From Bacteroidota bacterium (GTDB lineage Bacteria > Bacteroidota > Rhodothermia > JANXDC01), in contig JANXDC010000010.1 of the NCBI GenBank assembly GCA_025059945.1, positions 1 through 64,000 on the forward strand: a stretch of 64,000 nt of DNA, in the 5' to 3' direction. Position numbers and translations under genes: made by a program. The number at the start of each line of letters is the position of its first letter. Position 1 is the first letter of the stretch. The notes beneath the pieces were generated by a model. The model was not told the origin of the DNA and made no database searches. It was given only the letters and a program-made list of their open reading frames with translations. Shown in pieces: positions 11,519-29,651 of this stretch.

Positions 11519-13368
11519 TGAAAAACCGCGCTCAGGTTGGGGATCTGCCGGCGATTTCGGGATCGGCCCGGACTGGGGGAGAACGGCCGCAGGCCGGAGT
11601 CCTGCCATTGTAGCCATCCTGCTACGCTCAGATGCCCGCGGGCGCTCAGTCGCCATTGTAGAGCCGCTGTTAGGCCCCATTGGCGCACAAACGACCGGGC
11701 CGGGGACTCCGAAAAGTACTGGGAACGCTCATAGAGGCGCAAACCGAGCTCCGCCTCCAATGGCCCTGGCCATGTGGCCTGCAATCGCGGCCACAGCTCC
11801 CAGGTGCGCACCGTGTCCGTGGGCGTCTCGGCGAAGTCCGGCCAGTACAGGCGCCCGATCAGAAGCCGGCTGTAGCTAAGCTGCCAGTTGAGACGCCAGC
11901 GAACGCCCAGCCGATGCTCCCCGCGGCCCTCGGCCCGCAGCTCACGGGCGGACTGCCCTCGGCGGGGGCTTCCCGGCAGAGTGAAGTCATCGACCGCGTA
12001 GTTGGCGCGCAGCTCGGCGATGGCCTCCAGGCGTTGCCCCTCTGTGGGGGTCCAAGTCCAGGAGGGGCTCAGGCGCAGCAGACGCTGCCATTGGTTTTCC
12101 GCGCTCCGAGCGGCCTTTAAATAGACCGTATGCAAGGCCAGGGCCTGAGCCAACAGGCGCCATGCGAAGTCCGCGCGCGTCCAAGGTTGGATCTGTAGTG
12201 TAAGCACGTACAGCAGCTCGTCGAAATCGTCGTCGTTTCCCTCTGGGGTGTCATGCCGTGCGATACGGGCTATTCCCTCCAGGCGAAACACGTCCGGCCA
12301 GGCGTAGAAGGCCCCGATTCGCGTCTGCCTGCCCCAATATCCGGCTTGCTCCAGCAAGCCGGCCTGACGTCGAGCTAGGCCCGGCGTCAGCCGATCCGCG
12401 TTGAGCAGGCTGCGCCCCTCCTCTTGACTGGCCAAGCGGGCCTCAAGACCAGCCCGACCCCAGGGCCCTTCGGCCTGTAAGGCCGCCTCGGCCTCTAGAC
12501 TTATCCGACGCAAACCCGTATCGAGCACTTCGACCTCGGCAGGCACGTGCCGGTGCCGCACCGTCCGGTCGAGGCGCTCGAAGCGCCCTCCGGCCCGGAA
12601 AACCCAGCCCGTACCGAGAGGATACAACAGACGCAAATCCGTCCACAGCGTATCGGCGCCCGTGGATTCGATCACCTCTAGACCCGCTATGCCGGCGTTC
12701 AGGAAACTGGCTGGCTGGTAGTACTCCCGAAGGGCGCGCACCCAGGAGCCACGCAGGAATAACTCGGCCGGCGCAAAAAGCCCCCTAATGACGCCCTCGA
12801 CGCGGCCGTCTACGAACCGACGCGGGCTAATCTGCAGGACCTGTCCGTAGAGGCGGCCAGAGAGCTCATAGGACCCCCATCGCCTGCCGCGTAGGTCCCC
12901 TGTGATGCGCAGACCTGGACCTATGTCCGCTTGCTGAGCCCGTCGATCCCATCCCCAGAGGGGGGAGAGGGCAAACTCTCCGGGGCCGACCGCCCGGGCC
13001 CAGCGCCCCCACAGAAGCCATTGTTCCCCGGAGAGGCGGTTCTGGAGCCCGGCGTGATGCAGGGACTCCAGCCCCAGCTCGAGAGTACCCCAGCTGAGGG
13101 CGCGCCAAAACGAGGCCCGCGCTCGCCAGTCGCTCCGACGCGGACCCGAACCGGTGGAGAAGAAAAGCTGTTCGGCCGTCCAACGGCTTTGGACCTGAGC
13201 GCCCCAGGCGCCTGAGCGGACCTGCCACCACCCGATGTGCCGGTGGCTGAGCGCCGTAGGGGAGCGCTCAAGCCCCACCTCCAGGGTCGGCTGTTGTGCC
13301 CCGGCGCGGCTACACAGAAGCAGCAAAAAAAGCAAAACGGCCCCAACGCGCACGGGGGCAAAATACAA
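11506..13368 (-). CDS. Predicted outer-membrane beta-barrel protein
   Basis: No family was recognised. The 620-residue product begins with a signal peptide (VGAVLLFLLLLCSRAGAQ). It is then almost entirely alternating, aromatic-rich strands with many Trp, Tyr and Arg residues and ends FQWTL, which resembles an outer-membrane barrel. It lies 25 nt after the secretin gene, so it may work with the pilus or secretion machine at the outer membrane. The start is uncertain: TTG at 13368, or GTG at 13353 which gives a more standard signal peptide (MRVGAVLLF...). The frame overlaps the RsbW-like gene by 13 nt at the 3' end. Confidence 0.7.
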   Translation of the reverse strand: MYFAPVRVGAVLLFLLLLCSRAGAQQPTLEVGLERSPTALSHRHIGWWQVRSGAWGAQVQSRWTAEQLFFSTGSGPRRSDWRARASFWRALSWGTLELGLESLHHAGLQNRLSGEQWLLWGRWARAVGPGEFALSPLWGWDRRAQQADIGPGLRITGDLRGRRWGSYELSGRLYGQVLQISPRRFVDGRVEGVIRGLFAPAELFLRGSWVRALREYYQPASFLNAGIAGLEVIESTGADTLWTDLRLLYPLGTGWVFRAGGRFERLDRTVRHRHVPAEVEVLDTGLRRISLEAEAALQAEGPWGRAGLEARLASQEEGRSLLNADRLTPGLARRQAGLLEQAGYWGRQTRIGAFYAWPDVFRLEGIARIARHDTPEGNDDDFDELLYVLTLQIQPWTRADFAWRLLAQALALHTVYLKAARSAENQWQRLLRLSPSWTWTPTEGQRLEAIAELRANYAVDDFTLPGSPRRGQSARELRAEGRGEHRLGVRWRLNWQLSYSRLLIGRLYWPDFAETPTDTVRTWELWPRLQATWPGPLEAELGLRLYERSQYFSESPARSFVRQWGLTAALQWRLSARGHLSVAGWLQWQDSGLRPFSPSPGRSRNRRQIPNLSAVFQWTL

Positions 13369-13393: not shown

Positions 13394-14629
13394 CTAGCGG
13401 CGTTCCTCTAGCAGGCGTCGAAAGCCCTGTTGACGCTCTCGTATCCGATCCAGGGTCGATCCCGCGGGCCGCCGCTCCGTCAGGGGGGACAGGAGCTGGG
13501 CGCGCAGGACGATAACGAGCTCTTTGCGCACCAAACTTTTCTTCTCATATCCGAAGAGATAGCGCAGGCCGAAAAACCAGGGCGGCAGGTCCTTTAGCAG
13601 GGGCACCCCGACGCGCGAGACGCTCTGCTCGGTGCTGAACAAGCCGCCGATGACCGTCTCCTCGCCGTCGAGCAGGAGCGCTCGGGTGGCGGCTCGGCTT
13701 TTGTCGACGGCCACGCCGGCGCCCACCACGCGGGGGGAGCTGCGCTCAACCTCGATGGCAAGGTGGATGAAGGGGATCGAATCCTCAACCACCACGGGCT
13801 CCACGCTCACGATCGTGCCCGTGCGCACGAACTGGGTGATCGTATTGCCGGCGAAATCGCGGGCGAAGATAGGCACATCGGAGCCCACCTGGATCTCCCC
13901 CTTTTGACCGGATTGAACGGTCACTTGTGGATTGGCCACAACCCTACCCAGGGCGAGCTCCTCTAAGGTCCGCAACACAAACTCCGTGGATAGCTCCCCC
14001 GTGCTGCGGCCGCTGCGTCCCAAGAGCCGTCTTAGGTCCGCGCTCAATTCAGGAGCACCAGCTTGAACCCGATCGGCGTTCGGTAGGCCCACGCCCAGAC
14101 CCGCTGTGGTCGAACGCAGCATGCGTGAAAGCAGACCCACCACGTTGATGCCCAGCTCCCGGGCCACCTCGGTGTTGACTTCGAAAAAGACGGCCGATAT
14201 CTCGACCTCGCGCGTACGCAGGGTCACGCCCTCCTGTGCCCGCGGTCCGGCTGCGGAGGGAGCCTCGGAGGGGAGTTCTTGAGCCGAAGCAAGCAGCCAA
14301 AAACTGGGGCGCTCGAGGAGGGCAAGCCGGTTTTGCCGCAACACGAGCTCCAAGGCGTCGCGCCAGGGCTGGCCGCTAATGGCCACGCCGATGGGCGTGG
14401 TGCGCTCCTCGGGATCCAGGATGGGTTTTTGCCCGGCTCGGCGTGCTAACTCGTTGATGAGGCCCAAAAATTGGTCGAAGGGCGTAGTGGGGGCAAACGA
14501 AACCAACTCCTCCGGCGGAATATAGGAGCGGAGCAGCCGCTCTGGAGGGCGCACCTGCGCCCATGCGCATCCAAGCGGCCCAAGAAGCAGCCCGAGCAAA
14601 AGAGCCTGGAGACGAACGGCGCGCATCAT
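13394..14629 (-). CDS. Secretin of a type IV pilus / type II secretion-like system (short form)
   Basis: The outer-membrane gate of the pilus/secretion machine. It has a signal peptide (to about residue 25) and a short secretin/TonB N-domain (about 50-110, with TTPIGVAISGQPWRDALELV). The conserved secretin core runs from about 140 to 390, with VVANPQVTVQSGQKGEI, SVEPVVV and GEETVIGGLFS. At 411 residues it is shorter than PilQ or GspD because it has no AMIN domains and few N-ring domains. Its ATG overlaps the stop of the pilO-pilP gene by 4 nt. Charged C-terminal residues (about 380-411) may bind a pilotin; none is evident nearby. Confidence 0.85.
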   Translation of the reverse strand: MMRAVRLQALLLGLLLGPLGCAWAQVRPPERLLRSYIPPEELVSFAPTTPFDQFLGLINELARRAGQKPILDPEERTTPIGVAISGQPWRDALELVLRQNRLALLERPSFWLLASAQELPSEAPSAAGPRAQEGVTLRTREVEISAVFFEVNTEVARELGINVVGLLSRMLRSTTAGLGVGLPNADRVQAGAPELSADLRRLLGRSGRSTGELSTEFVLRTLEELALGRVVANPQVTVQSGQKGEIQVGSDVPIFARDFAGNTITQFVRTGTIVSVEPVVVEDSIPFIHLAIEVERSSPRVVGAGVAVDKSRAATRALLLDGEETVIGGLFSTEQSVSRVGVPLLKDLPPWFFGLRYLFGYEKKSLVRKELVIVLRAQLLSPLTERRPAGSTLDRIRERQQGFRRLLEERR

Positions 14630-15561
14630 CGCATTTCCTCTTGGGTTTGCTGCCTTGTGGTGACGCTCGAGGAGCGCAGATCCAACTCCACGCGGTCTAT
14701 GATGCCCCCTCTATCGAGCTGAAAGACCGCCAAGCCGGCTAGAGGGTCTACGCCTAGCAGATGGCCCAGATATACCCGATCTCCAATGTGAAGCCGGTGC
14801 AGACGCTTGTGCTGATCGCGCAACAGCACCCAATCCTGTCCCAGCCCGAGCAACTCCGAGCGCTCCACGTCCGGTAGGTCCTCCGTGTTGGGCGGCACTT
14901 GGGCCAGAATGATCGGATAAAACGGGTTATGAGCAGCCCGGAACGGCACGAGCGCCTCCGGCGGCAAGACGGGACGGCGCTGGGGAGGCTTCAGCCCCCC
15001 GGCCTCGGTGAAATAGGCCCACAGGCGCAGGGAGAACTTCACCATCACCTCGAGCCGCTCGCGCCCGCTCCGGCGGTCCGGCTTGATCGTGCTGTGATCG
15101 GAGATCTGCAGCTCGCTTACCTTGTACAGCGGGGGGCTGTTCTCGAGGTTCCACAGAAACCGGTATAGGTAAACGAAGTACCCCTCGCCAGAGATGCTGT
15201 ACTTGTGAAAAGCCACGTTGCCGATCCGCTCTGTGCCTTCGTAGCGCACATCGAAGCGCTCAAAGCCCACGGGGGTGAGCTGATTCAGATACGCCATGGC
15301 CTCGGCCGTGCTGAGCCGCACGGGGATGAACTTATACTGCGCGTCCCACCTGGCTAAGGCCTGCTCATAGTAAGCCCGGGCTTGGGACTCCTCGATGCGC
15401 AGCGCCTCAAGCTTTCCGCCCGTACGACGCAGTTGCTCGAACTCGGCCTTACGCCGCCGAAGCTGCTCCGGCAGTTTCCAGAAAGTCAGCCCCACGCCGA
15501 CCCCGGAGATGAGAAGCCAGAGCAGGGCTAACAAGATGGTGTTGCGCGTAGCGGTATTCAC
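14626..15561 (-). CDS. PilO-like protein fused to a PilP/GspC-like domain
   Basis: A 311-residue bitopic inner-membrane protein. One span (residues 8-28) and a coiled coil (about 35-65) are followed by a PilO-like ferredoxin fold (about 75-195), with AMAYLNQLTPVGFERFDV and YFVYLYRFLWNLE. A Pro-rich linker leads to a beta domain at about 235-300 (LHIGDRVYLGHLLGVDPLAGLAVF...GIIDRVELDL) like PilP or GspC. In other bacteria PilO and PilP are separate proteins that link the inner-membrane platform to the secretin. The start is GTG 15561, overlapping the pilM-pilN stop as GTGA. Confidence 0.7.
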   Translation of the reverse strand: MNTATRNTILLALLWLLISGVGVGLTFWKLPEQLRRRKAEFEQLRRTGGKLEALRIEESQARAYYEQALARWDAQYKFIPVRLSTAEAMAYLNQLTPVGFERFDVRYEGTERIGNVAFHKYSISGEGYFVYLYRFLWNLENSPPLYKVSELQISDHSTIKPDRRSGRERLEVMVKFSLRLWAYFTEAGGLKPPQRRPVLPPEALVPFRAAHNPFYPIILAQVPPNTEDLPDVERSELLGLGQDWVLLRDQHKRLHRLHIGDRVYLGHLLGVDPLAGLAVFQLDRGGIIDRVELDLRSSSVTTRQQTQEEMR

Positions 15562-17231
15562 GGCGCACTCCGTTCCGCTTCCGGGTTCACCAGACTCCGG
15601 AGGTACTCCACGGATCGGGGTAGCCTTTCGGGAGTCGGCACGCGCATATGGTACTGGAACACACGGGCGCCGCGTATCTCATCAAAGGTCACCGCCTGGA
15701 TGGTCGCGTCAAGACGGCGGGCCAGAGCCACGATCCGGTCTCGGTCTAAGGCGTATCCGGAAAGGTCCACGTGCTCTTTGTCCGGCACCCACTCGCGAAT
15801 CCAAATACCCCCTACAACCCCGGTCGCCTCAGCGATCTGAGCTAGGGCCCTGCTCCAGCGATCCGAACCGAGAAGCAGGCTATCTAAGGCTTGGGTGGCC
15901 GCCTCGTATTGCAGCCCAAGCGCCCGCAGGCTGTCGATGCGCGCCCGCAGTTCACGCTCCAAAGAAGGGGAAAGGGGGGCAGCTGAGCGCACCGCCTCCT
16001 CCCAGCGGCGAAGCTCCAGGCGTTGCTGATGGAGCCGGCCCACAAAGAAGAGCGTACTTACGAAGAGCAGCAGCAAGAGCGCATACCCATGCCAGGCCAG
16101 CTCGATCTGGGCCGGCCTTCGCTCCAGATCCGGAGGAAGCAGGTTGACGTCGTAAAAGAGAGCGTGATCGTTGGTGATGAGCCGCAGGGCCACGGCGATC
16201 GGAATCGTGTACGCCTCGACGTGTTCAGGGTTTACGCCCTCATCGAGGACGATCGCCATATCCGACAGGCCCTCACTCAGAGGTACCACGTAAGCGCCCG
16301 GGAAATAAGCCTCCATCTGAGCCCGCAGCCGGTCGCTATCCCCCCCCTCAGCGAGCACATACAGATTATGTACCCGCTCCAGCCCCTCGTCATCCTGCAG
16401 AAGCAGGAGCCGGCTGCAGATCGTCTCGGGCGCGTCATAGATGGTGACCGCCTTAAGCGATTCCACGCGCAGAAGCGTCTCCCCCCGCAAAGCCAGCACA
16501 AGCGTCTCCTCTAGCCCCACGCGCACGATAAAGGAGACCTCATCCGCCATCATGAGATGACAGGCTCGGGCTATCCCGAGCAGCGTGGTGGGTTCGGCAT
16601 CGATTAGGCCGACTCGAGGAAAACGCCGACCCCATAGCTCCCGCAGGGTGTTAAGAGAGCTCAACACCGGGGAGGTGGGCATGCGCATAATGGCCAGCAC
16701 GGCCCGATCCTTAAAGGGCACGAAGCCCACCGCGTCGGGGGAGACGGGCTGATCTGAGCGCTCCCGCAATAGCCGAAATAGGCTGCGGAACTCCATCCGC
16801 TCCTGATCCCAATCGGCTGGGATGGCTAGCTCCTGTAGCAGGAGATCCGGCTCCGTAATACAGAAGCCCACCTGCAACCGATGCTCAAAAGCCTCTGTCT
16901 CCAAGAGCTCCCGCAGCTCGACCACAATATCCGATGGCCCAGGCTGTTCTATGAAGGGCGCATAGGCGAGGGACTCAGACGATTCGCTTTCGGCGAGCTC
17001 CATGGCCACAGAGTTCAAGGGCGAGGGAAGATCAAGAAACCCCACCCCGGAGGCCCTAGCCCCCTGCTCTTGAGAGTCGCCCGTGGCCAGAGCCTGGGCC
17101 ATCGAGCTGAAAGCCCGGGGCTTGCTCTCTAGGCGGTGCACTCGGATGCGACCGTTCTGGTAGGAGAGTACAGCCGCGTACACCCGCTGCGGGGTCACGT
17201 AGATGCCCGCCACGCGCTCCGAACGTCGCAT
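15558..17231 (-). CDS. PilM-PilN fusion (actin-like ATPase plus membrane assembly protein)
   Basis: A 557-residue protein. Residues 1-360 follow the PilM/GspL actin-like layout (GIYVTPQRVYAAVLS at the N-terminus, DAEPTTLLGIARA near 211-223). Then NLLPP at 363-367, the usual opening motif of PilN, a single membrane span at 380-398, a coiled coil, and a PilN-like periplasmic fold (GGIWIREWVPDKEHVDLSGYA) to the end. GspL of type II secretion has a similar one-chain plan, so this may be called GspL-like. It starts 5 nt after pilT and overlaps the pilO-pilP gene by 4 nt. The classic ATP-binding residues were not confirmed by eye. Confidence 0.75.
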   Translation of the reverse strand: MRRSERVAGIYVTPQRVYAAVLSYQNGRIRVHRLESKPRAFSSMAQALATGDSQEQGARASGVGFLDLPSPLNSVAMELAESESSESLAYAPFIEQPGPSDIVVELRELLETEAFEHRLQVGFCITEPDLLLQELAIPADWDQERMEFRSLFRLLRERSDQPVSPDAVGFVPFKDRAVLAIMRMPTSPVLSSLNTLRELWGRRFPRVGLIDAEPTTLLGIARACHLMMADEVSFIVRVGLEETLVLALRGETLLRVESLKAVTIYDAPETICSRLLLLQDDEGLERVHNLYVLAEGGDSDRLRAQMEAYFPGAYVVPLSEGLSDMAIVLDEGVNPEHVEAYTIPIAVALRLITNDHALFYDVNLLPPDLERRPAQIELAWHGYALLLLLFVSTLFFVGRLHQQRLELRRWEEAVRSAAPLSPSLERELRARIDSLRALGLQYEAATQALDSLLLGSDRWSRALAQIAEATGVVGGIWIREWVPDKEHVDLSGYALDRDRIVALARRLDATIQAVTFDEIRGARVFQYHMRVPTPERLPRSVEYLRSLVNPEAERSAP

Positions 17232-17236
17232 GCGCG

Positions 17237-18499
17237 CTAGCCCTCCGCCTGCTGCAGGAGCTGCTGCAGCCGTCGCTTATGGTTGGCGAAGTTCATCGCC
17301 GTCTCCCAGGCGATCTGCCGTTGCCGGTAGAGGCGAAACAAATCCTGTTCCATGGTGATCATGCCCACGGCGCCGCCCTCCCAGATCATCTGGTAGATCT
17401 CGGCCGTGTTGTTGTTCTTGATGGCCGCCTTAACGGCCGGGGTGACGAGCAACACCTCCTTGGCCAGCACCCGTCCGCCGCCGATCTTCGGGCAGAGCTT
17501 CTGCGATATGATCACGCGCAGAACGTCGGCCAGCCGATTGCGAACCCGGTCCTGCTCCTCCGGGGGACATTCCGCGATGATGCGATCGATGGACTCCACG
17601 GCCGAACAAGTGTGTAGGGTGGAGAAGACCTTGTGACCGGAGTCCGTCACCTCTAGGGCGGCCATGATGGTATCGGGATCGCGCATCTCGCCGATTACGA
17701 TGATGTCCGGATCCTGACGCAGGGCTTGTATGGTGCCCTCCTTGAAGGAGCGCACATCTCGGCCCACCTCACGGTGTCGGATCAGACAGCGCTTGGAGGT
17801 GTGCACATATTCGATCGGCTCCCCCAGGATGACGATATGCGCGTCCGAGGTCTGGTTATGGGCCTCTATGATCGCATCCAGGGTCGTGGATTTGCCCGAG
17901 CCCGTAACGCCCGTGACCAAGGTAAGTCCGTCGCGCACGTACTCGAACAGGAGGTGCTTGATGATGTTCGGATGAAAGCCCAGCGACTCCAAAGGCCGCA
18001 CCTGCTCCGGGAGGGCGCGTATATTCAACGCCAGGTACCCATCTTCCACGTAGACGGCGGCCCGAAACCGGCGCAGACGCCCCTGATGTTCGATCTCTAG
18101 GGAAAAGTCCGCGCTGAGCTTTTCGTAAAGGCGTTCGCGGATGCGCTGCGTGGTGATCGAGAGGATAAGCCAGTTGGCCTCATCGGGGCTGTAGCGGCCC
18201 ATCTCTGGACGCGGACGCTTGGCTCCGTCGATGCGATACCATATGTAGCCGTTCGAAGAGCGCCCTCCCAAGTCGATATCGGACGCTTGCCGCTCCAGCA
18301 TATCCCGCATCAGAGCGTGCACAATCGTGCGCAGGTCCGCGCGCGCGGATTCCGGTAGCTCCTCTAGTTCATCAGCTTGACGTCGGATGCGCTCTAGGTC
18401 CGTAACATGGGGGGGAAGTTTTGTAATACGCTGCCGCAGCCAATCCGGTAACTCCGCGTTACCGGGCAGAACCCTGCCGGCCTGAACCGTGGGGGGCAT
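17237..18499 (-). CDS. pilT: PilT-like retraction ATPase
   Basis: A hexameric AAA-type motor of the PilT/PilU class, 420 residues. Walker A GVTGSGKSTT is at 197-206, the Asp box contains GEPIEYVH, Walker B is IIVIGEMRDPDT, and the His box is VFSTLHTCSAVESIDRI. The N-terminal PAS-like domain is preceded by about 50 extra residues. The four-cysteine zinc site of PilB is absent, as expected for PilT. It would depolymerise the pilus. It follows the second minor-pilin triplet after a 72-nt gap and precedes pilM-pilN by 5 nt. Confidence 0.9.
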   Translation of the reverse strand: MPPTVQAGRVLPGNAELPDWLRQRITKLPPHVTDLERIRRQADELEELPESARADLRTIVHALMRDMLERQASDIDLGGRSSNGYIWYRIDGAKRPRPEMGRYSPDEANWLILSITTQRIRERLYEKLSADFSLEIEHQGRLRRFRAAVYVEDGYLALNIRALPEQVRPLESLGFHPNIIKHLLFEYVRDGLTLVTGVTGSGKSTTLDAIIEAHNQTSDAHIVILGEPIEYVHTSKRCLIRHREVGRDVRSFKEGTIQALRQDPDIIVIGEMRDPDTIMAALEVTDSGHKVFSTLHTCSAVESIDRIIAECPPEEQDRVRNRLADVLRVIISQKLCPKIGGGRVLAKEVLLVTPAVKAAIKNNNTAEIYQMIWEGGAVGMITMEQDLFRLYRQRQIAWETAMNFANHKRRLQQLLQQAEG

Positions 18500-18571: not shown

Positions 18572-19621
18572 TCAGCGGAGCCAGTTGGCAACTTCGATGC
18601 CGGTTGGGCCGAAGAAAAGCCGCTGGCGCAGCAAGGCCAAGGCCTCCGAGCTGTACAGAAGGCTCGGGTTGCCGTTTATACGAAACGCGATAGGACGCGA
18701 GGCGGTGTTGTATACCAGGAGCGCCCCGATAAGCTGGGGAGTGCCGGAGACGGTCTCCATCACCGTCAGGTCCTCACCGTTGCGCACGATCACCATGCCC
18801 CTCCAGCGCACGTTCCCAGATAGGCGCAGGTGCCCGTCTACGAGTAGGATGCCGACTCCGGAAACAGCCCCTGACAACTCCAGCCCATTCGGAGCTCGGG
18901 CCAGAACGGGTCGCTCCAGCGTGCCGATTTCCTGTGCACCGCTGAGCCGGCTGGGCAGGGAGAGCGCCTCCGCTTGCCATAACTGCTCAATCAGCGCGGC
19001 CGCATCGAAGCCTGCACCTTCAAAGACCACGTTCGGCACAAGATCGTTGCGGCCTTGTATGTTATCCCGCTGCTGATGGTTCAGGGCTCGGATGATCCGA
19101 TCCTGGATTGCGGCACGCGTGGCCAAAATCCCATAGGCGGCGCTGGAACCGGACCGCGGCCGGCCGTCTAGCCCGTGATCCCGGCCGTCTATTCGAAAGG
19201 CGTTGCCGCGGAAGTCCGGGGAGATTTCATCGGAGAAGGCGCTCACCAAGGTGATAGCGGCTGGCAACGTCGGTATGGGGCTTCCCGAACGGCGAACCAG
19301 AACCCCTGCCGTGTCCCATGTGCCTCCGTAACGCCCCACCGCGTAAAGCCGCACCACGGCGGGCTCTATCTCGCAGAAACGCACCGTGTAGCGCCCCCCC
19401 TGATAGGGACGCTCCTCTATGGGCGTGCGCGCGTTCCAGTCCTCCAAAAGCCGTCTTAGGCCGTGTCCGAGCCCTGTAAGCGCGATCTCCCGGGCCAAGA
19501 CCCGTTCATAGTAACGGCTTGAGAGCTGGGCGTCCCGCAGGTTCTGATCCCGCATCTGCCCGAGCAGAACGCCGAAGACCACCCCGGCCCCGGCTAGGAA
19601 CAACAACAACGCCCTGCCCAC
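18572..19621 (-). CDS. PilX-like pilus assembly protein, second copy
   Basis: A 349-residue protein with an N-terminal membrane helix (GRALLLFLAGAGVVFGVLL). The helix is followed by YYERVLAREIALTGLGHGLRRLL, the pattern of PilX/GspK-type minor subunits. A large soluble domain ends NPSLLYSSEALALLRQRL. It is a shorter paralogue of the product of 20816-22369, sharing the VLARE segment, the LTL/ITL...A..FSG.A..I.G region and the C-terminal YSS-AL motif. The start is GTG 19621, set by AGGAGG at 19628-19633. An upstream ATG at 19678 lies inside the preceding gene and is rejected. It closes the second minor-pilin cassette. Confidence 0.65.
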   Translation of the reverse strand: MGRALLLFLAGAGVVFGVLLGQMRDQNLRDAQLSSRYYERVLAREIALTGLGHGLRRLLEDWNARTPIEERPYQGGRYTVRFCEIEPAVVRLYAVGRYGGTWDTAGVLVRRSGSPIPTLPAAITLVSAFSDEISPDFRGNAFRIDGRDHGLDGRPRSGSSAAYGILATRAAIQDRIIRALNHQQRDNIQGRNDLVPNVVFEGAGFDAAALIEQLWQAEALSLPSRLSGAQEIGTLERPVLARAPNGLELSGAVSGVGILLVDGHLRLSGNVRWRGMVIVRNGEDLTVMETVSGTPQLIGALLVYNTASRPIAFRINGNPSLLYSSEALALLRQRLFFGPTGIEVANWLR

Positions 19622-19627
19622 TGGTGG

Positions 19628-19633
19628 CCTCCT
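19628..19633 (-). promoter_or_regulatory. Ribosome binding site that fixes the GTG start at 19621
   Basis: A perfect AGGAGG lies 6 nt before GTG 19621. This excludes the in-frame ATG at 19678, which lacks such a site and overlaps the upstream gene. Confidence 0.75.
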
Positions 19634-19634
19634 A

Positions 19635-20168
19635 TCAAGGCATGAGATTAGGAGGTGCGACTGTAGAGCGCCATACAAGAGGGGGAGCTTCGGGCTGCCA
19701 AGGCAAGCGGTAGCGCAGGGTGATGCGGAGCAGGCGAACCTGCTCCAGGGCCTGAGTCAGACGTCCGGTCTCATCCAGGGGCTCCAGCTCGAAGCGCTCC
19801 AGCCCCTCTGCGGTCTCTCCGTCCAACAGGCCATTTACCCAACGCCTGAGCCGTCCCGTCGAACCCGAATCCCGGACCCAACGATAGCAGATGGAATCGG
19901 GTCGGCCATCTTCGTTCAGGTCAGCCCGAAAGACCAGACCCTCCCGATCCAAGGCGAGGAGCATCTCGGACCGATGGTGCACTCCTCGGCCCAGGCGGCG
20001 CAGGTCCTGCTCAAGCTGTTCGATGAGCTCTAGCGCGTGGGCTTTCTGTGTGGTTTGAGCAAATAGCTCCAGGCGTACACGCTTCAGCGTGTGCTCTAAG
20101 TGCAACAGGGCTACCGTGGCGGTGCCAAAAAGCAGGCTCACGGCGATTGAGCTCAACCAGCCTGTCAT
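19635..20168 (-). CDS. PilW-like minor pilin/pseudopilin, second copy
   Basis: A 177-residue protein with an N-terminal hydrophobic helix (WLSSIAVSLLFGTATVALLHL) followed by an amphipathic helix (ALELIEQLEQDLRRLGRGV). This is the arrangement of PilW/GspJ-type subunits. The soluble part (DREGLVFRADLNEDGRPDSICYRW) resembles the corresponding region of 22390-22950. A classic prepilin cleavage site (G-F-T-L-x-E) is not present. The start codon follows the previous stop by 2 nt, and the next gene starts 13 nt after its stop. Assignment rests on position, topology and the paralogue, not on strong motifs. Confidence 0.6.
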   Translation of the reverse strand: MTGWLSSIAVSLLFGTATVALLHLEHTLKRVRLELFAQTTQKAHALELIEQLEQDLRRLGRGVHHRSEMLLALDREGLVFRADLNEDGRPDSICYRWVRDSGSTGRLRRWVNGLLDGETAEGLERFELEPLDETGRLTQALEQVRLLRITLRYRLPWQPEAPPLVWRSTVAPPNLMP

Positions 20169-20170
20169 AA

Positions 20171-20659
20171 TTAACGGTAATAGGCGTAGGTGCGCCGAAG
20201 CCGAATGGGGGCTTCTAAGTGCGGGCTATGCACAGCCACCTCGAGGGTCTTAAAAAACGTGGCCTCCAAGGCGGGGCGCTCCAGATCCTGAGGATCCGCG
20301 TAATAGACCGAGGCGACGATCCGATAGGGGATCCCGCCGAGGCTATCTAAGCGAAGGAACCCGTGAAAATCGTCCAGGTCGTCAAACTGATCGGGATACA
20401 CCTCACCCGCTTCGGGGCCCAAACCGTGCAGGGGAGTGAGCGCCGAGGCCTGCGCGCACCATCCGCTGCGGGTGCGTTCGTCAAAAGCCCGCGTGCTGCA
20501 TTCCTCCAGTAGGCCCTGGGCTAAGGAGACAGCGGCTGTCGTGACCCGCTCCCGCTCCTGGGTCCGGATGGCCGCGCCGACCCGATCCAGGGTGCCATAC
20601 GTCAGTAGACCCAACAGCACGAGCGCCCCAACACCTTCGATCCACTGGGACCGGTCCAC
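20171..20659 (-). CDS. PilV-like minor pilin/pseudopilin, second copy
   Basis: A 162-residue protein with an N-terminal membrane helix (WIEGVGALVLLGLLTYGTL) and then a helix of the type VSLAQGLLEECSTRAFDERT. Its middle carries DDLDDFHGFLRLDS, matching QDIDDFHGIQPYTY in the product of 22963-23487, and both end with a beta-rich stretch finishing RLRRTYAYYR or RLSRVYTYP. I infer these two genes are paralogues. It begins at GTG 20659 and opens the second three-gene cassette. Its function in the pilus tip or initiation complex is inferred from the family. Confidence 0.6.
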   Translation of the reverse strand: MDRSQWIEGVGALVLLGLLTYGTLDRVGAAIRTQERERVTTAAVSLAQGLLEECSTRAFDERTRSGWCAQASALTPLHGLGPEAGEVYPDQFDDLDDFHGFLRLDSLGGIPYRIVASVYYADPQDLERPALEATFFKTLEVAVHSPHLEAPIRLRRTYAYYR

Positions 20660-20772
20660 GGGTTGCTGCCACCTGATCGACGCTAGCTGGCCAGCTGGGG
20701 CACAAAAAGCGGACCAGCTAGGACCCAGAGGCGTTTCGGAAGAAGGAGGAGGCCTTCATCAGAGCAGGCGAT

Positions 20773-20802
20773 ACGTTTTTACCCAGGCTCGGGTGCAAAC
20801 GT
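20773..20802. repeat. Interrupted inverted repeat between the two minor-pilin cassettes
   Basis: ACGTTT (20773-20778), TT, ACCC (20781-20784), a 6-nt loop, GGGT (20791-20794), GC, AAACGT (20797-20802). In RNA this gives a 10-bp stem with one 2x2 internal loop. It lies 14 nt after the stop of the first cassette (20816) and upstream of the second, inside the 156-bp gap 20660-20815. There is no U-run, so it may be an attenuator or protein site and not a simple terminator. Confidence 0.4.
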
Positions 20803-20815
20803 AACGTCACCGGCC

Positions 20816-22369
20816 TCAGCGCTCCAGCTCCTCCAGAGGCAGGAGCTGGTTTAAGTTCCCCAGCCTGGGCAGATAAGAGCTTAGCCGCTGCAGAGCGGCG
20901 GAGCTATACTGAATTTGCACGCTGCCGCTCATGGACAGCAGCACCTTGCCCGATGCGAGCTCCGTGGGCAAGGGGCTGGAGCCGCCCCCTGCCGAAGAGT
21001 TCTTCTTGAGGTGATGATAGATCGCCAGCTCATATACGAGCCGGTTGGTGGACGCGTTGTATACGCGCACCGTTAATGCACCGTCGCGCCCCACAGGGTC
21101 TTCCTGGACTTGCTTGGGCTCCGTTCCCCGAAGGGCCCCAAGGGAGCGAAAATCGATGCGCAGAGCCCGCACCTGATTCCGAGGCACGGTGACGGTAAAG
21201 GAGCTTGGCAGTGTGATTCGCTGAGGTCCAGAACCCCCGTCAAAGGTAAGAACGCCGCCGCCGTGATGTTGGGTGTTGATCAGCTCGATGCGAATCGTGC
21301 TCGCCCCCGACTGGTGCACCAGATCCCAGCGCAGACGGCTATCGTTGAGCAGGTCCACATAGGTCACGTTGTACTTGTCATCGTATTCGTGCTCGTGGTA
21401 GACCTCCTTGGTGCTGTTGGGCCGATCAAAGACATCCACGTCGAAATGGCCGCCGGGCAACCCCGGATCGGTGTTGCGTATCACGAAAGCCCCATAAATG
21501 GAGGGGTTTCCGGAGAAGCTCACCTGTTTATGTCCGCTGTTTTGCACGAACACAAGCCCCTCCCAACTGAAATTACCGGAGCAGACGAGGCTGCCCTTCA
21601 CAAGCAGGGCCCCATAGCCCCGCACGGTACCGGAAAAGGCGGCGTCACCGTCTATGAGCACGATGGCCGGCTGGGTGGGGGAGCCGAAAACCTGATTGCC
21701 GCTAAAGGCCTGGTTACCCGTGTAGCGCTGCGTGGCGCGCGTCTCCAGCTCCTGAGCGAGGCTGGTCAGGTCCCATGCCAGGCTGCCGTTGCGCACGTCG
21801 CGCTGCCCGCCGGTGCCTGTCACGGTGTTGGGGGGAAATTTGTTAAGCGCCGCCAGCAAGATGTTGGCGACATCCGTATTGGTGCTCCAGGCCCCGTGGG
21901 CGTGGGGGCCCGGCCCTGAGCCTCCCCCCATGCTGGGAGGGCGTTGATCGTATCCGGAGATGCTGTAAGCTGATCCCGAAAAAGAGGCGGCAAGCGCGGG
22001 CACATCTAAGGTGAGCGCGGCGGGGAAGCCAGAGGCCGTAGCGAGCCGGCTGCGAATCTGAACTGTGGCTGAGCCGTATCGGCCGGTGGCCACAAGCTCC
22101 AGCTGACCCGACCCCACCTCTTGGATTGTCACATCCATTCGAGCCTCTTTATAGGGTCGGTTGGTCCAGCCGGCACGCCAGGATAGATCCCGCTTAAGCT
22201 GGCTTAAAGCCAAGTTGAAAGCGCTCCGCGCCGCCTCGCGCGCCAGCACGCGTTCTTCATGGCGTAGCAGCTTCTCCTCGGTGTGGAACAAGGTATGGCG
22301 CATGCCATACAACAGGCCCCCCAAACTCAGCAGGGCCAGCAGGACCGCGATCAACGTTGCTTTGCCCAT
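20816..22369 (-). CDS. PilX-like pilus assembly protein, first copy
   Basis: A 517-residue protein. It begins MGKATLIAVLLALLSLGGLLY, a membrane helix, followed by LREARVLARE-like sequence and ARSAFNLALSQLKRDLSWR. A large beta-rich region rich in Gly, Ser and Asn (repeated F-S-G-N/T elements such as NQAFSGNQVF and FSGNPSIYGAF) leads to a C-terminus with QIQYSSAALQRLSSYL. It is the longer paralogue of 18572-19621 and carries an insertion of about 130 residues (around 320-450) with a His/Asp/Tyr-rich segment. The start at ATG 22369 has AAGGA nearby; an upstream start at 22432 would overlap the previous gene. Confidence 0.65.
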   Translation of the reverse strand: MGKATLIAVLLALLSLGGLLYGMRHTLFHTEEKLLRHEERVLAREAARSAFNLALSQLKRDLSWRAGWTNRPYKEARMDVTIQEVGSGQLELVATGRYGSATVQIRSRLATASGFPAALTLDVPALAASFSGSAYSISGYDQRPPSMGGGSGPGPHAHGAWSTNTDVANILLAALNKFPPNTVTGTGGQRDVRNGSLAWDLTSLAQELETRATQRYTGNQAFSGNQVFGSPTQPAIVLIDGDAAFSGTVRGYGALLVKGSLVCSGNFSWEGLVFVQNSGHKQVSFSGNPSIYGAFVIRNTDPGLPGGHFDVDVFDRPNSTKEVYHEHEYDDKYNVTYVDLLNDSRLRWDLVHQSGASTIRIELINTQHHGGGVLTFDGGSGPQRITLPSSFTVTVPRNQVRALRIDFRSLGALRGTEPKQVQEDPVGRDGALTVRVYNASTNRLVYELAIYHHLKKNSSAGGGSSPLPTELASGKVLLSMSGSVQIQYSSAALQRLSSYLPRLGNLNQLLPLEELER

Positions 22370-22389
22370 AGCGTCCTTCTTTGCTATGA

Positions 22390-22950
22390 CTATGACTGCG
22401 CCAACGCTCGAGGTCGATACGTGGCCTGCCACCGGGTGTGCGGCAGGTAGCCCTTCTGCTGGTCAAACGGATAGGCCGCGGCCAGATAGACCCGGATCTG
22501 ACGCACCTCGGAGGCAATCGTGGTGGGTTGCCCGGCGTCGTTTAAAAGCTCAAACCGAAAGGCCCGAAGCGCGCTCGGGCCTGAACCGGCGGGCGCCCCA
22601 TCGAGGTATCGACGGACTTCATACAGCGGCCTGCCATCAGGGCCGTATCGGCTAAATAGGCGCACATAGCGCACGGTGCGGATCGGCCCGTTGGCCTCTA
22701 TGCGACGTCGGAACTCCAGATGCAAGCTATCGCCCGAAAGTAGCTTCGCCTCCCCAGCCGGCACCCCGGAGCCGATGTTCGCAAGATCGGCCTCGAGCAT
22801 CTCCACGAACGCCATGAGCTCCGAGCGGGCCATGACGTACAAAGTGGCCTCTGTGCGGGCCTCGCGAGCGCGCTCCTGAATACCCAACAACAACAGGAGC
22901 GCGATCATACCGATCACAACACCTTGCGCATGATCCCAGAGCGCTTGCAT
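22390..22950 (-). CDS. PilW-like minor pilin/pseudopilin, first copy
   Basis: A protein of about 186 residues. It has an N-terminal membrane helix (GVVIGMIALLLLLGI), an amphipathic helix (ARSELMAFVEMLEADLANIGSGV) and a soluble domain with LEFRRRIEANGPIRTVRYVR. The arrangement and several positions match 19635-20168. I use ATG 22950; an in-frame TTG at 22959 would add three residues and sits 3 nt from the previous stop. The lack of a prepilin leader is shared by all pilin-like genes of the locus. Confidence 0.6.
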   Translation of the reverse strand: MQALWDHAQGVVIGMIALLLLLGIQERAREARTEATLYVMARSELMAFVEMLEADLANIGSGVPAGEAKLLSGDSLHLEFRRRIEANGPIRTVRYVRLFSRYGPDGRPLYEVRRYLDGAPAGSGPSALRAFRFELLNDAGQPTTIASEVRQIRVYLAAAYPFDQQKGYLPHTRWQATYRPRALAQS

Positions 22951-22962
22951 ACGGATCAACCG

Positions 22963-23487
22963 CTACGGATACGTGTATACGCGAGAAAGCCGTACAGGCG
23001 CGCGCAGCTCAGGATGGGTGACGGTGACCGTGGCTTCCTTGGCAAACGTGGGCGTTGAGGAGCCCTGCGTGGGGTCGTCGGGGTTGACGTACCGAACCTG
23101 CACCTGTACCTCGAAACGCAGCCCATCAGGGGTGGTGTAGGTATAGGGCTGGATGCCATGAAAATCGTCTATGTCCTGACACTGCTCAAAGCGCCTGCCG
23201 GTTGGAAACGGAGGCCAAGTGAGCTGTGTGGGGCTCGTGATCGCGCTTACGGATACGGAGCCCCCCAAGCTCGCCGTGCCCAAATCCCGGCCCCCTGAGG
23301 TCATCACCGCTGCGTCAAAGGGCTTGGTGCCGATATGTTCCAAGACTTCGCGCGCCACTTCCACGGCAGCCCCCTCAAGCTCTCCACGCATCATGGTGAG
23401 CCTGCCCTCCAAGATGGCGCGCTGCTGGGAAAGCCCCCACAATCCGGCTATCAATATGGCGCAGAAAGCCAGTAGCGTCTGTTGCAT
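22963..23487 (-). CDS. PilV-like minor pilin/pseudopilin, first copy
   Basis: A 174-residue protein: N-terminal membrane helix (LLAFCAILIAGLWGLS), then LEGAAVEVAREVLEHIGTKP, then a beta-rich domain with QDIDDFHGIQPYTY and a terminal strand APVRLSRVYTYP. The pattern matches 20171-20659. It lies 45 nt after the pilB-like ATPase and 12 nt before the PilW-like gene, and opens the first of two equal three-gene cassettes. Role as a minor pilin or pseudopilin is inferred from context. Confidence 0.6.
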   Translation of the reverse strand: MQQTLLAFCAILIAGLWGLSQQRAILEGRLTMMRGELEGAAVEVAREVLEHIGTKPFDAAVMTSGGRDLGTASLGGSVSVSAITSPTQLTWPPFPTGRRFEQCQDIDDFHGIQPYTYTTPDGLRFEVQVQVRYVNPDDPTQGSSTPTFAKEATVTVTHPELRAPVRLSRVYTYP

Positions 23488-23532: not shown

Positions 23533-25389
23533 TCAGCCCTCATCAGCCGTTACGCGCAGGACCTCCTCGACAGACGTCTCCCCCTGCAAAGCCAGTGCCC
23601 GAGCCGAGGCCCGAAGCGTGAGCATACCTTCGCTGATGGCCTGCCGCCGGATGGCGTCTTCGTCGATATCGCCGCCGGATTGTACGATCAAGCTTCGGAT
23701 CGCGCGGCTAAAGTAGAGGGCCTCGGCGATGGCGCGCCGACCTTTGTATCCCTTGCCGCCGCAGCGCTTGCAGGAGGACTTAGAGCTGGGCTTATACAGG
23801 ACGGCCCCCCGCAGCTCCTCTTCGGTGAAACCCAACGCCTCGAGCAGTTCAGGGGGACTTTCGCGGTCCTCCACCTTACACTGCGGACAGAGCACGCGCA
23901 CCAGACGCTGCGCCATGACGAGATTGATGGCGTAGGCGATCAAAAACGGCTCGATGCCCATCTTGTACAGACGCGCGACGGCGCTTGGGGCGTCGTTCGT
24001 ATGCAGCGTGGCGAACGTGAGGTGTCCCGTGTTGGCCAGCTTGATCGCCAGCTCGGCTGTCTGGCGATCGCGCATCTCCCCTACCATTACGACATCGGGG
24101 TCGTGCCGCAGAATAGCTCGGAGGGCGTCTTCGAAGCCGAGCTTGTGGCTAAGCCGGATCTGGCGCGCCCCTTTGATAATGTACTCCACGGGATCCTCGA
24201 CGGTGAGCACGTTTAGTTCAGGCCGAATGACGTGGTGCAGCGCGGCGACCAGAGTGGTCGATTTGCCCGATCCCGTAGGGCCCGTGACGACCACCATCCC
24301 ATAAGGTTGGCTAATGGCCCGCTGAAAACGCTCCAGGGCCGAGGGCAGTAGCCCCAGTTGCGTGAGGTCCGTGATCACTTTGCGATCGTCCAGGACCCGG
24401 ATGACGATCGACTCCGCGCGCATCTCCTGATGGGCGCTGGCGATCGGCAGCACGGACACCCGATACCGAATCAGGGCTCCATCAACCCAGCGTTGGATGA
24501 AGCCATCTTGGGCGCGGTCGCGTTCGAAACGGTCCACGTTACCGGCCAGGTCCTTGGCCACGGCCAGGATGGCCTCCGGGTGCAGGTTCTCCTCAGCATG
24601 CCAAAGCTCAAGCCGTCCATCGAGACGAAAGTGAAACTCCGTGCGGCGCGATTCGGTGGGGAAGATGTGAATGTCGCTGGCTCCGAGCCGAACCGCCTCC
24701 ACAAGCGCACCTTCCAGCAAATTGATGATGGCGCTCCGGTTGATCTCGGCCTCGATACGCTCCTCGTCGACGACCGAACCTCCCTCAGCGTAGGTGGCCC
24801 CCAAGTCGTACGGGATGCCCTGCTCGCGGATGCGCTCTAGGTACTCGTTTTTGCTCGGGGAGACGAGCGCCAGCAGGTCCGAGACGACCTTTCGAGGCGC
24901 GTACCGCACTTCATAGCGCTCCAGGCTCAACTCCCGCAGCAGGCGCATTAGCCGGGGATGGGCGGGATCGGGGGTGACGAAAATGAGCCGCAAGTAGCCC
25001 TGCTGCTCGACCTCATAGGCCAGGGGCAAGACCTTGAGCGCAAGCAGCTCCTCGCGAAGCGGCTTGGGGAAGGAATCCAGCACCTGCCGAATAAAGGTTG
25101 GGTCAACGCGGGATTCCTCCACATGCGCCTGCCGAAACGCATAGATGCGCGCCGCCTCGTCCAATACCAGATCCGGATCGGCGTTCAGGTCCTCCATGAG
25201 AATGCGCCACAAAGCGCGACGCTCCCCACGTTCCCGGCGTTGGATCTCGAGGGCTTTGCGTATGTGCTCGACAGAGATGTAGCCTTGCGCCAGTAGGGAG
25301 GCCACGACGCGATCCTGAATGGGAAGGCGTGCGCTCTCCGCCTCGCCGTTTCCCCCAATCGTATGATGCTGGCGCGTCCGAGCCTCCAT
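23533..25389 (-). CDS. pilB: PilB/GspE-type assembly ATPase
   Basis: The motor that powers pilus or pseudopilus extension, 618 residues. A helical N-domain of the MshEN/GspE_N type spans about 25-180. The motor domain has Walker A TGPTGSGKST near residue 370, Walker B VVMVGEMRDRQT, and the His box TFATLHTNDAPSAVARL. The zinc-binding pairs CPQC and CKRC, typical of PilB and GspE, lie near 500-540. It follows gspF/pilC by 13 nt. The name pilB is chosen because a pilT-like gene is in the same locus; gspE would fit equally on sequence. Confidence 0.9.
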   Translation of the reverse strand: MEARTRQHHTIGGNGEAESARLPIQDRVVASLLAQGYISVEHIRKALEIQRRERGERRALWRILMEDLNADPDLVLDEAARIYAFRQAHVEESRVDPTFIRQVLDSFPKPLREELLALKVLPLAYEVEQQGYLRLIFVTPDPAHPRLMRLLRELSLERYEVRYAPRKVVSDLLALVSPSKNEYLERIREQGIPYDLGATYAEGGSVVDEERIEAEINRSAIINLLEGALVEAVRLGASDIHIFPTESRRTEFHFRLDGRLELWHAEENLHPEAILAVAKDLAGNVDRFERDRAQDGFIQRWVDGALIRYRVSVLPIASAHQEMRAESIVIRVLDDRKVITDLTQLGLLPSALERFQRAISQPYGMVVVTGPTGSGKSTTLVAALHHVIRPELNVLTVEDPVEYIIKGARQIRLSHKLGFEDALRAILRHDPDVVMVGEMRDRQTAELAIKLANTGHLTFATLHTNDAPSAVARLYKMGIEPFLIAYAINLVMAQRLVRVLCPQCKVEDRESPPELLEALGFTEEELRGAVLYKPSSKSSCKRCGGKGYKGRRAIAEALYFSRAIRSLIVQSGGDIDEDAIRRQAISEGMLTLRASARALALQGETSVEEVLRVTADEG

Positions 25390-25402: not shown

Positions 25403-26749
25403 CTAGCGCAGGTACGAGCCGGAATTCGGCGAAACCAAGGCTATCTCGGAGGAGATGAGCGTAAGGATCAGGATCGCGATGGTGAGCAAAAACGCGATCG
25501 CAACCTGGATCGCCTCCACCGCAACCTTAAGCCGCAGCCCCGTCTCCCGCTCATAGTAATCGGCCATTTGCTGAGCAGACTTGCGCACCGTGCCCGTTTC
25601 CGCTCCAGCCCGGAAACGCGCCAACGCCATGGGGGTAAAGACCCCCGAGGCCTCCATGGCGCGCACCAGGTCCAGGCCCTGGCCGAGTAGCAGCGGGATG
25701 GTGCGCGTCTTAATCTGCCGCTCCATATGGGCGTTTCCGCAGGCTTCTGCGGCAAGCCGCATGACCTCGATGTTCTCTCCCGCCCCGGAGTAGAGCACGC
25801 CAAAGACCCGACAGAAGATTTCGATATGGATCTTGTGCAGCAGAGGCCCGATGACGGGGATGCGTATCAGCTGCCGGTGCACGAACAGGCGCCCCTGCGG
25901 AGTGCGCGACCAGGCCCAAAAGCCGGCTAGCAGCAGCCCGAAAGCCGCGGCCAGCCCCAGTCCGTACCGATCGAGCCAATCGGCTAGGCGCAGGGTGGCG
26001 GCCGTAAGGGGGGGAAGGGCCATGCCGAATTTCTGAAACAGGCGGGCTGTTTCCGGGAAAATATGCCAAATGTAGTAGACGAAAGCCCCTATCAAGACCA
26101 AAAGCGTAATGGCCGGCGTGATGAGCGCGCTGCGCAGGCTTTTGCGAAAGTCCTCACGTCGTTCCAGAAAACGGGCCGTGGCCTCGAAGATCTCGGCCAT
26201 GTTGCCCGATTGGGTGCCCATGCCCAGCATGTAGGCCGTAAACCGACCCAGAACGTGCTGATGCTTCATGAAGGCCGTGCGCGCATCCACGCCGCGCTTC
26301 AGATCCCCCTGGATGTCGCGGATCGTCTGCTTCAGCACGGGACTTTGGACATCGTGTACGAGCAGGCTCAAGACCTCATCAAAAGGCAGCTTCTCCTGCA
26401 GCAGATTGGCCGCCAGGCGCACAAACAAGATCACCTCGGCCGAGGAGGGCTTGAGCTGCAGCTCCAGGAGCTTTCGCTCTACCCGGATAACCTGCAGGCC
26501 CAGGTTCTCAAGAGCCCGAACCAGCTCCGCTTTGCTGTAGGCGCGCTGTTCCCCCTTTACGAGGCGCCCCGACGGGTGGCGAGCCTTATATAGGAAGACC
26601 TGACGCGGCTCCAAGGAGCGAAGGCTAAACCGGTGCTGTCGGGCCAGCTCGCGCGCCTTCTGGCGCGCCGCGCGCCGATTGGGGGCAAACAGTACCCCCT
26701 GCACCAGCTGCCCCGTCGGGGCGACCCCTGTGAATCTGAACTCTGGCAT
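25403..26749 (-). CDS. pilC: PilC/GspF-type inner-membrane platform protein
   Basis: A 448-residue polytopic protein. Two GspF repeats are visible: the first near LFVRLAANLLQEKLPFDEVLSLL with MLGMGTQSGNMAEIFEATARFL, the second near EIFCRVFGVLYSGAGENIEVMRLA with RFRAGAETGTVRKSAQQMADYY. Membrane spans occur near 225-250, 275-295 and 415-440. The first 110 residues form a basic N-domain typical of PilC. It lies 7 nt after the pilin stop and 13 nt before pilB, so pilin, platform and motor are co-transcribed. Confidence 0.92.
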   Translation of the reverse strand: MPEFRFTGVAPTGQLVQGVLFAPNRRAARQKARELARQHRFSLRSLEPRQVFLYKARHPSGRLVKGEQRAYSKAELVRALENLGLQVIRVERKLLELQLKPSSAEVILFVRLAANLLQEKLPFDEVLSLLVHDVQSPVLKQTIRDIQGDLKRGVDARTAFMKHQHVLGRFTAYMLGMGTQSGNMAEIFEATARFLERREDFRKSLRSALITPAITLLVLIGAFVYYIWHIFPETARLFQKFGMALPPLTAATLRLADWLDRYGLGLAAAFGLLLAGFWAWSRTPQGRLFVHRQLIRIPVIGPLLHKIHIEIFCRVFGVLYSGAGENIEVMRLAAEACGNAHMERQIKTRTIPLLLGQGLDLVRAMEASGVFTPMALARFRAGAETGTVRKSAQQMADYYERETGLRLKVAVEAIQVAIAFLLTIAILILTLISSEIALVSPNSGSYLR

Positions 26750-28052: not shown

Positions 28053-28775
28053 ATGGGCGTACGCGCTATATCGGTCGGTCTGAGTTGCCTTTTCTTGCTG
28101 GGAAGCGCCTCCGTCCTATGGGCTCAGGGAGGCACGATCCGGGGCAAGGTTTACTTTGAGGGCAACCCCATTCGCACCCGCCCCATCAGCATGAAACAAG
28201 ACAAAGCCTGTGACGCCCTGCATGGGGGCAAGACGATCGATTCCGAAGAGTTTGTGCTCAACTCTGACAACACCCTGCAGAATGTGATCGTGTACGCCAA
28301 GACGGGCACGCAAGGTAAGGTCTTCCGACCCGTGCGCACAGTGGCCGTGCTGGATCAGGTCATGTGCATGTACACGCCCCGGGTGCTGGCCGTGATGACG
28401 GGGCAGCCAGTAGAGATCCGCAACTCCGATCCCCTGCTACACAATGTGCATTTTACAAGCCGCGCCAACGGCGAATTCAACATCGGCCAGCCCACCAAAG
28501 GGGTCAAGATGACCCGGCAGTTCGACCGAGCAGAGGGTCCGGGCTCGGCCACGTTCAAGTGCGATGTGCATCCCTGGATGCGAGCCTACCTGGCCGTCTT
28601 CGATCACCCTGTCTTCGCCGTAACTGGAAAAGATGGATCCTTCACCATTCGGAATGTGCCCGCGGGCACCTACGTGCTGGAAGCCTGGCATGAGCGGCTG
28701 GGTGCGATCAGCCAGAACGTTACGGTGCGAGCCGGGCAGACCGTGGAGGTCGACTTCAAATTCGTGCGCCGCTAG
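28053..28775 (+). CDS. Cupredoxin-domain secreted protein with carboxypeptidase-regulatory C-domain
   Basis: A 240-residue exported protein. The signal peptide ends near SVLWAQ. A plastocyanin-like domain follows, with possible type 1 copper ligands H130 (PLLHNVHF), C170, H173 and M176 (FKCDVHPWM). The last 55 residues form a carboxypeptidase-regulatory-like fold (GKDGSFTIRNVPAGTYVLEAWHE). It leads the cytochrome oxidase operon, 24 nt before subunit II. It may pass electrons or copper to the oxidase, since subunit II has no haem c. This role is inference; the copper motif is directly visible. Confidence 0.82.
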   Translation: MGVRAISVGLSCLFLLGSASVLWAQGGTIRGKVYFEGNPIRTRPISMKQDKACDALHGGKTIDSEEFVLNSDNTLQNVIVYAKTGTQGKVFRPVRTVAVLDQVMCMYTPRVLAVMTGQPVEIRNSDPLLHNVHFTSRANGEFNIGQPTKGVKMTRQFDRAEGPGSATFKCDVHPWMRAYLAVFDHPVFAVTGKDGSFTIRNVPAGTYVLEAWHERLGAISQNVTVRAGQTVEVDFKFVRR

Positions 28776-28799
28776 GTCAACCCAAGGGAGGGGCGATTC

Positions 28800-29624: not shown

Positions 29625-29651
29625 AAACACGCAAAAACGGGAGAAGGCCCC

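Follow-up and report, generated by a model that had tools for sequence, protein, structure and literature searches.

A doubled minor-pilin-like cassette in the operon of a probable type IVa-like pilus with leaderless subunits in Rhodothermia

Introduction

A prepilin peptidase is thought to be essential for making type IV pili. Type IV filaments are defined, and searched for in genomes, by their cleavable class III leader and its peptidase (PMC4471445), and the peptidase has been placed in the ancestral system (PMC6668835). The prepilin leaders known so far run from 6 to 26 residues, and certain systems tolerate the shortening of their leaders (PMC4471445). In Myxococcus xanthus, PilY1.1 of cluster 1 and PilY1.3 of cluster 3 were each found to be sufficient on their own for pili to form (PMC13190605). 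ComZ of Thermus thermophilus is a solenoid pilin for which a position at the tip and DNA binding have been argued, and it has been proposed as a DNA receptor (PMC6561018). For Melioribacter roseus, pilT, pilQ, pilB and pilC were reported and pilA and pilD were not found, which was read as an incomplete set (PMC3534657).

Here, we analysed a 64,000-nucleotide stretch of DNA from a Rhodothermia genome (the window), in which two three-gene minor-pilin-like cassettes, V1-W1-X1 and V2-W2-X2, stand side by side in a type IVa pilus (T4aP)-like operon. It is quite likely that the locus encodes two priming or tip cassettes for a single T4aP-like pilus with leaderless subunits.

Results

Organization of the operon

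The genes form one T4aP-like operon in the order MP-PilC-PilB-V1-W1-X1-V2-W2-X2-PilT-PilMN-like-PilO-like-PilQ (Table 1). The initial annotation had described two PilV-, PilW- and PilX-like blocks in matching order and strand, and all six reading frames were found as described, on the minus strand. The start codons of W1 (ATG, 22950), X1 (ATG, 22369), V2 (GTG, 20659) and X2 (GTG, 19621) are consistent with the orthologues in the nearest named relative, the MAG Bacteroidetes bacterium KatS3mg041 (L031), which has the same doubled arrangement. The intergenic distances are 45 nt ahead of V1, at most 20 nt within each cassette, 156 nt between the cassettes and 72 nt ahead of PilT. At the site equivalent to the inter-cassette gap, L031 has 151 nt, with 99 of 180 aligned columns identical. 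A promoter scan of the locus gave no signal above chance, the PilMN-like protein had no match in Pfam or the PDB, and the PilO-like protein had none in Pfam.

Table 1. Features of the T4aP-like operon in the window
Feature	Position	Strand	Remarks
MP, major pilin-like, 138 aa	26757..27173	-	leaderless MGQQQLLLL start; AF2 mean pLDDT 94.4; no upstream start codon
PilC/GspF-like platform protein	25403..26749	-	PF00482 E=1.7e-30
PilB-like assembly ATPase	23533..25389	-	PF00437 E=8.9e-98
V1, minor pilin-like, cassette 1, 174 aa	22963..23487	-	MQQTLL start, without leader; paralogue of V2
W1, minor pilin-like, cassette 1, 186 aa	22390..22950	-	paralogue of W2; start matches L031 orthologue
X1, beta-solenoid tip pilin-like, cassette 1, 517 aa	20816..22369	-	insert ~308-453; paralogue of X2; ComZ match
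Inter-cassette gap, 156 nt, predicted stem-loops	20660..20815	-	fold z-score -2.0; possible regulatory junction
V2, minor pilin-like, cassette 2, 162 aa	20171..20659	-	GTG start; paralogue of V1
W2, minor pilin-like, cassette 2, 177 aa	19635..20168	-	paralogue of W1
X2, beta-solenoid pilin-like, cassette 2, 349 aa	18572..19621	-	GTG start (MGRALLL); paralogue of X1; start as in L031 X2
PilT-like retraction ATPase	17237..18499	-	best PDB phmmer matches PilT, E=7e-73
PilM/PilN-like alignment protein	15558..17231	-	named by position and size only; position conserved in relatives
PilO/PilP-like protein	14626..15561	-	named by position only; position conserved
PilQ-like secretin	13394..14629	-	PF00263 E=1.6e-27

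Paralogy of the two cassettes

Pairwise alignment by BLASTP was significant for all three pairs, with E=3e-14 and 31% identity over 144 columns for V1 and V2, E=5e-14 and 27% over 164 columns for W1 and W2, and E=1e-27 and 31% over 315 columns for X1 and X2. In a shuffle test that kept the N-terminal 30 residues separate, the z-scores were 21.5 for the V pair, 20.8 for the W pair and 42.3 for the X pair, whereas every cross pair stayed at or below 1.5, indicating that the pairing is specific and is not caused by shared hydrophobicity. Because all cross pairs lie at background, the whole V-W-X order was duplicated, rather than one fold being reused. V1/V2, W1/W2 and X1/X2 are thus genuine paralogues with order and strand kept. 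A blastn comparison of the two blocks gave no significant DNA similarity (best E=0.057), which suggests that the copies are old.

Cassette number and history in relatives

In Rhodothermia, Ignavibacteria and other contigs of the Fibrobacterota-Chlorobiota-Bacteroidota (FCB) group, the conserved order is MP-PilC-PilB-V-W-X-PilT-PilMN-PilO-PilQ, with one cassette. In 80 contigs retrieved with PilB, PilB and PilT usually flank a single V-W-X, two cassettes occur only in L031 and the window, and one contig (L033) carries V-W-X-X; across the class, extra cassettes recur. A V-profile search found V in 128 of 196 class genomes, many of them with two to seven copies, and this class survey ruled out the impression from the 80 contigs that doubling is unique to the window and L031. 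Among 20 fetched stretches, complete tandem cassettes are present in seven (L141, L144, L147, L149, L150, L151 and L152), and elsewhere the cassettes are dispersed; L141 has three in tandem, L144 has three inside the operon, and in L150 two follow PilB directly, which is also the arrangement of the window. In a tree built from 100 cassettes, nearest relatives among the tandem cassettes are c1 and c2 of L144, L150 with L142_c2, those of L147 and of L152, and c1 and c3 of L141. Since several tandem pairs are nearest relatives, the doubling events were separate and repeated, and on this sequence evidence the multiplication of the putative tip cassette is a recurrent habit of the system.

The identity between the window and L031 is 65-67% for cassette 1 and 51-65% for cassette 2, and since both copies are shared, the duplication is older, within the genus of the window, than the separation of these two members. 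Concatenated trees place cassette 2, on a long branch, outside cassette 1 and the other Rhodothermia with starred support, and AU tests on the concatenated data speak against sisterhood of the two cassettes (p=0.011 and 0.0006). With single genes, a genus-level duplication was not rejected by W (p=0.30) or X (p=0.19), and V gave p=0.02. A simple genus-specific duplication is therefore disfavoured by the concatenated trees and V, though not by W or X. The same branching and the rejection of sisterhood would also be expected if cassette 2 had come from a distant relative and been inserted beside cassette 1, without any duplication in this lineage, and cassettes have been moved and inverted in other relatives (L066, L091, L094 and L099). 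We regard such an origin as possible but doubtful, because neither W nor X alone rejects sisterhood, X1 and X2 are 29% identical, above the ~21% between X1 and other Rhodothermia, and long-branch attraction may have shaped the trees. The segmental duplication proposed in the initial annotation is supported; its great age is less certain, as cassette 2 could, judged from these trees, be a duplicate that dates back to the class, a cassette gained from elsewhere or a younger copy that evolves fast.

Major subunit and X, V and W proteins

The AF2 model of MP, built from 64 homologues, has a helix at residues 2-55 (54 residues) followed by a beta sheet. In a PDB profile search, 8 of 10 matches were type IV pilins, the best being the marginal match to Thermus PilA5 (E=0.0046). 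Foldseek against the PDB was weak (best pilin E=1.1, TM 0.42-0.45), and of the matches near the top, only that to Shewanella PilA covered nearly the full length. In Pfam, MP members most often matched the pilin family ComP_DUS (14 of 64 members, best 9.4e-5). MP was found in 73 of 198 genomes of the phylum, and several of the families concerned lie outside the class.

X1 was modelled from 38 homologues with a mean pLDDT of 82, and the model runs from a helix (2-60) through an antiparallel sheet (to ~111) and a beta-solenoid-like part (to ~300) to an insert (~308-453, modelled with less certainty) and a C-terminal return. The X1-specific insert accounts for the roughly 170 extra residues that had been noticed in the first PilX-like protein and is absent from X2 and most relatives. 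The best PDB matches by Foldseek were all Thermus ComZ chains (6qvi; E=4.4e-5, probability 1.00), so that both the model and the search point to a pilin framework with an inserted beta-solenoid. Identity to ComZ is ~10% and global TM-scores are ~0.2, indicating that the likeness lies in domain order and not in precise geometry. Relatives of X match DUF7305 (8.4e-21) and DUF4900. The label PilX-like is supported in the sense of a ComZ/DUF7305-type protein, rather than of the small Pseudomonas PilX. The labels PilV-like and PilW-like depend on gene order, on size and on the N-terminal helix, and no profile search established them: V had no profile relatives in the profile searches, the sole profile match of W was Thermus TTHA1219 at E=0.97, and Pfam and NCBIfam scans of the seven pilin-like proteins of the window, taken singly, gave nothing useful.

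Leaderless starts and the prepilin peptidase

In all seven pilin-like proteins of the window, the hydrophobic helix begins at or near residue 1 (residue 1-5). The MP start MGQQQLLL occurs across several FCB phyla, and 89 MP frames begin with M (89), G (88), then Q, S or T, then Q (88) and Q (89), followed by an L-rich segment. No ATG, GTG or TTG lies between this Met and the upstream stop in 85 of the 89 frames, the stop being at a median of 5 codons, and 42 of 43 further MP frames from the loci of 30 relatives likewise have no start codon before the upstream stop; the combined 127 of 132 open frames are frames and not independent species, some genomes being in both sets. Misannotated start codons as the source of the missing leader are ruled out by these upstream stops. 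A similar pattern holds for V, W and X, in which the transmembrane window starts within the first five residues in 36 of 42, 33 of 41 and 44 of 50 proteins, respectively.

The genome of the window is 100% complete and has no match to PF01478, PF06750 or PF07963, an absence at the sensitivity of these profiles, which matched 12, 8 and 8 of 14 controls, respectively. Neither a class III signal peptide nor a prepilin peptidase, both type IVa characters, was thus found. MP and a strong PilT co-occur in the identical 48 of 60 relatives, and 41 of these 48 are without PF01478. PF07963 was matched in 7 of 7 PF01478-positive genomes vs 2 of the 53 others (Fisher p=9e-8), and these seven relatives, going by their profile matches, probably carry a second, canonical system of the Cytophaga-type T2SS sort. 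PF01478 is also missing from 26 of 30 FCB genomes reached via PilB loci, many of them MAGs of unstated completeness. We read this as a conserved T4aP-like machine that probably works with leaderless pilins. The missing leader on every subunit and the missing prepilin peptidase match were overlooked in the initial annotation.

The subunits could be processed after all, by a prepilin peptidase divergent from Pfam or by another membrane protease cutting MG^QQQ with a two-residue leader. Gly2 is conserved in MP (88 of 89) and most X proteins (40 of 50), which is reminiscent of the prepilin Gly-1, and the tolerance of some systems for shortened leaders (PMC4471445) would fit. We nevertheless consider processing unlikely: V1, V2, W1 and W2 have no Gly2, the proposed leader is shorter than the 6-26 residues known so far (PMC4471445), and the two peptidase profiles are silent in a complete genome although they detect most or many of the controls. 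We found no description of leaderless pilins in the open literature, subscription papers and preprints being outside the search, and we claim no priority.

Discussion

The operon contains one assembly ATPase PilB, one platform protein PilC and one secretin PilQ, as expected of a type IVa system. It also has the PilT retraction ATPase, the absence of which would be expected of a T2SS; PilT structures gave the best match, and PilB/GspE matched at far lower significance (~1e-19). A genome-wide search with the PilT query found only PilT and PilB, so that, as far as that search sees, no machine other than this one is available to serve either cassette. The initial annotation had offered two roles for the cassettes: they would provide a single pilus with two alternative complexes for its tip or for priming, or one set would belong to a pilus and the other to a secretion pseudopilus. 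A true PilT together with a single PilB and secretin favours alternative tips on one retractable pilus, and the multiplication of cassettes in relatives makes this the best reading of the locus. T2SS and T4aP do have common core minor pilins in this order (PMC7248040), so cassette 2 might be imagined to serve a T2SS-like pseudopilus while cassette 1 serves the pilus, but no second machine was found, the PilT query recovering only PilB and PilT genome-wide, the operon has just one PilB, PilC and secretin, and its second ATPase is a true PilT, which makes this division of labour highly improbable.

From gene content and comparison with known systems, the two V-W-X sets probably build alternative tips for one retractable pilus. 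We propose that V and W form a short priming stack, which X, a pilin helix bearing a beta-solenoid, would cap; the MP filament would be extended through the secretin by PilB and drawn back by PilT. The two cassettes would give two tips, used alternatively or together, with cassette 1 providing the larger X head. The leaderless subunits would insert N-in in the inner membrane and enter the filament without a prepilin peptidase, and in MP and X, Gly2 should permit ordinary Met removal. ComEC is present in the genome, which is compatible with possible DNA binding by X. A PilY1 search was uninformative, as it found no match in the genome and none in any control either.

Both cassettes might instead form one mixed, larger tip complex in which one block is an accessory layer. 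Both known members of the genus retain the two blocks side by side, in a single operon and with short gaps, and the long branch of cassette 2 would be expected for a changed role. However, each block has all three genes in order, as expected if each is a complete set, and the complete cassettes that stand apart in relatives point to units able to work on their own; we judge a mixed tip improbable and prefer alternative tips.

More broadly, it is reasonably likely that Rhodothermia, Ignavibacteria and other FCB lineages make retractable leaderless-pilin filaments without a prepilin peptidase, each subunit being fit for assembly on translation except for the loss of its Met, and tune them by multiplying exchangeable three-gene tip cassettes. 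If this is true, processing and N-terminal methylation would not be intrinsic to assembly, the "incomplete" pili reported in this group would be explained, and a pilus family missed by standard searches would be added. The recurrent cassette duplications would also provide natural series in which to study what a pilus tip determines.

The locus resembles that of a type IVa pilus in that it combines both ATPases, the platform and the secretin with a gene for a major pilin-like subunit and with a block of three minor-pilin-like genes. It differs in that there is no class III signal peptide, no peptidase was found, Glu5 is lacking, MP and X start with MG, and no FimU/GspH-like gene was recognised in the operon. 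The Cytophaga-type putative T2SS of Bacteroidetes (PMC5553014) is likewise a type IV filament family locus with divergent minor pilins, but there a Peptidase_A24 gene is present and the pseudopilins are identifiable from homology. ComZ of T. thermophilus (6qvi; PMC6561018) shares with the X1 model the pilin helix, sheet and beta-solenoid, whereas X has no leader and is distant in both identity and global TM-score. Clusters 1-3 of M. xanthus (PMC13190605) are alike in providing several divergent minor-pilin cassettes as alternative tips for one T4aP; they consist of four minor pilins and PilY1 at separate loci, unlike the three leaderless genes that stand here in tandem within the core operon. 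For M. roseus, which belongs to the same wider group, the leaderless MP would fill the vacant place of pilA, and the pilus may do without pilD.

Results and discussion

Because the minor pilin-like V-W-X cassette is oriented opposite to the pilus operon in four contigs of relatives (L066, L091, L094 and L099), where it lies between PilB and PilT or, in L099, upstream of the leaderless major pilin-like gene (MP), it is suggested that the cassette moves as a unit. We also found a V-W-X-X arrangement in a Rhodothermus MAG (L033), in which only X is duplicated. Long X proteins of 636-663 aa, resembling X1 of the window in this form, occur in contigs L072, L083 and L084, that of L072 sharing 30% identity with X1 over 492 columns, and most Rhodothermia have no such long form.

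Coordinates of features flanking the pilus operon and on other contigs
Feature	Location	Positions	Strand or direction
620-aa protein, directly after the secretin	window	11506-13368	same as secretin
Genes for cytochrome c oxidase subunits II and I, preceded upstream by one for a secreted carboxypeptidase-regulatory-like protein	window	28053-31463	+
Stand-alone MP-like protein	L192 (G000 contig 5)	5061-5486	-
V-W-X-X	L033	4817-7165	

The cytochrome c oxidase gene group borders the operon. The 620-aa protein has an outer-membrane beta-barrel-like composition, gave no match in the Pfam search and was not observed as a conserved neighbour.

A second MP-like protein (MGQGHMLAFALGAMVVALAIVVGIQAF...) is encoded apart from the pilus operon and adjoins a large PD40-type protein on the opposite strand; the MP search returned a second match in the sister genome too. 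Seven class relatives (G016, G020, G042, G043, G044, G045 and G051) have a Peptidase_A24 gene as well as N_methyl pilins, the two lying near each other wherever one contig holds both, and this set is probably a separate canonical filament system beside the leaderless one.
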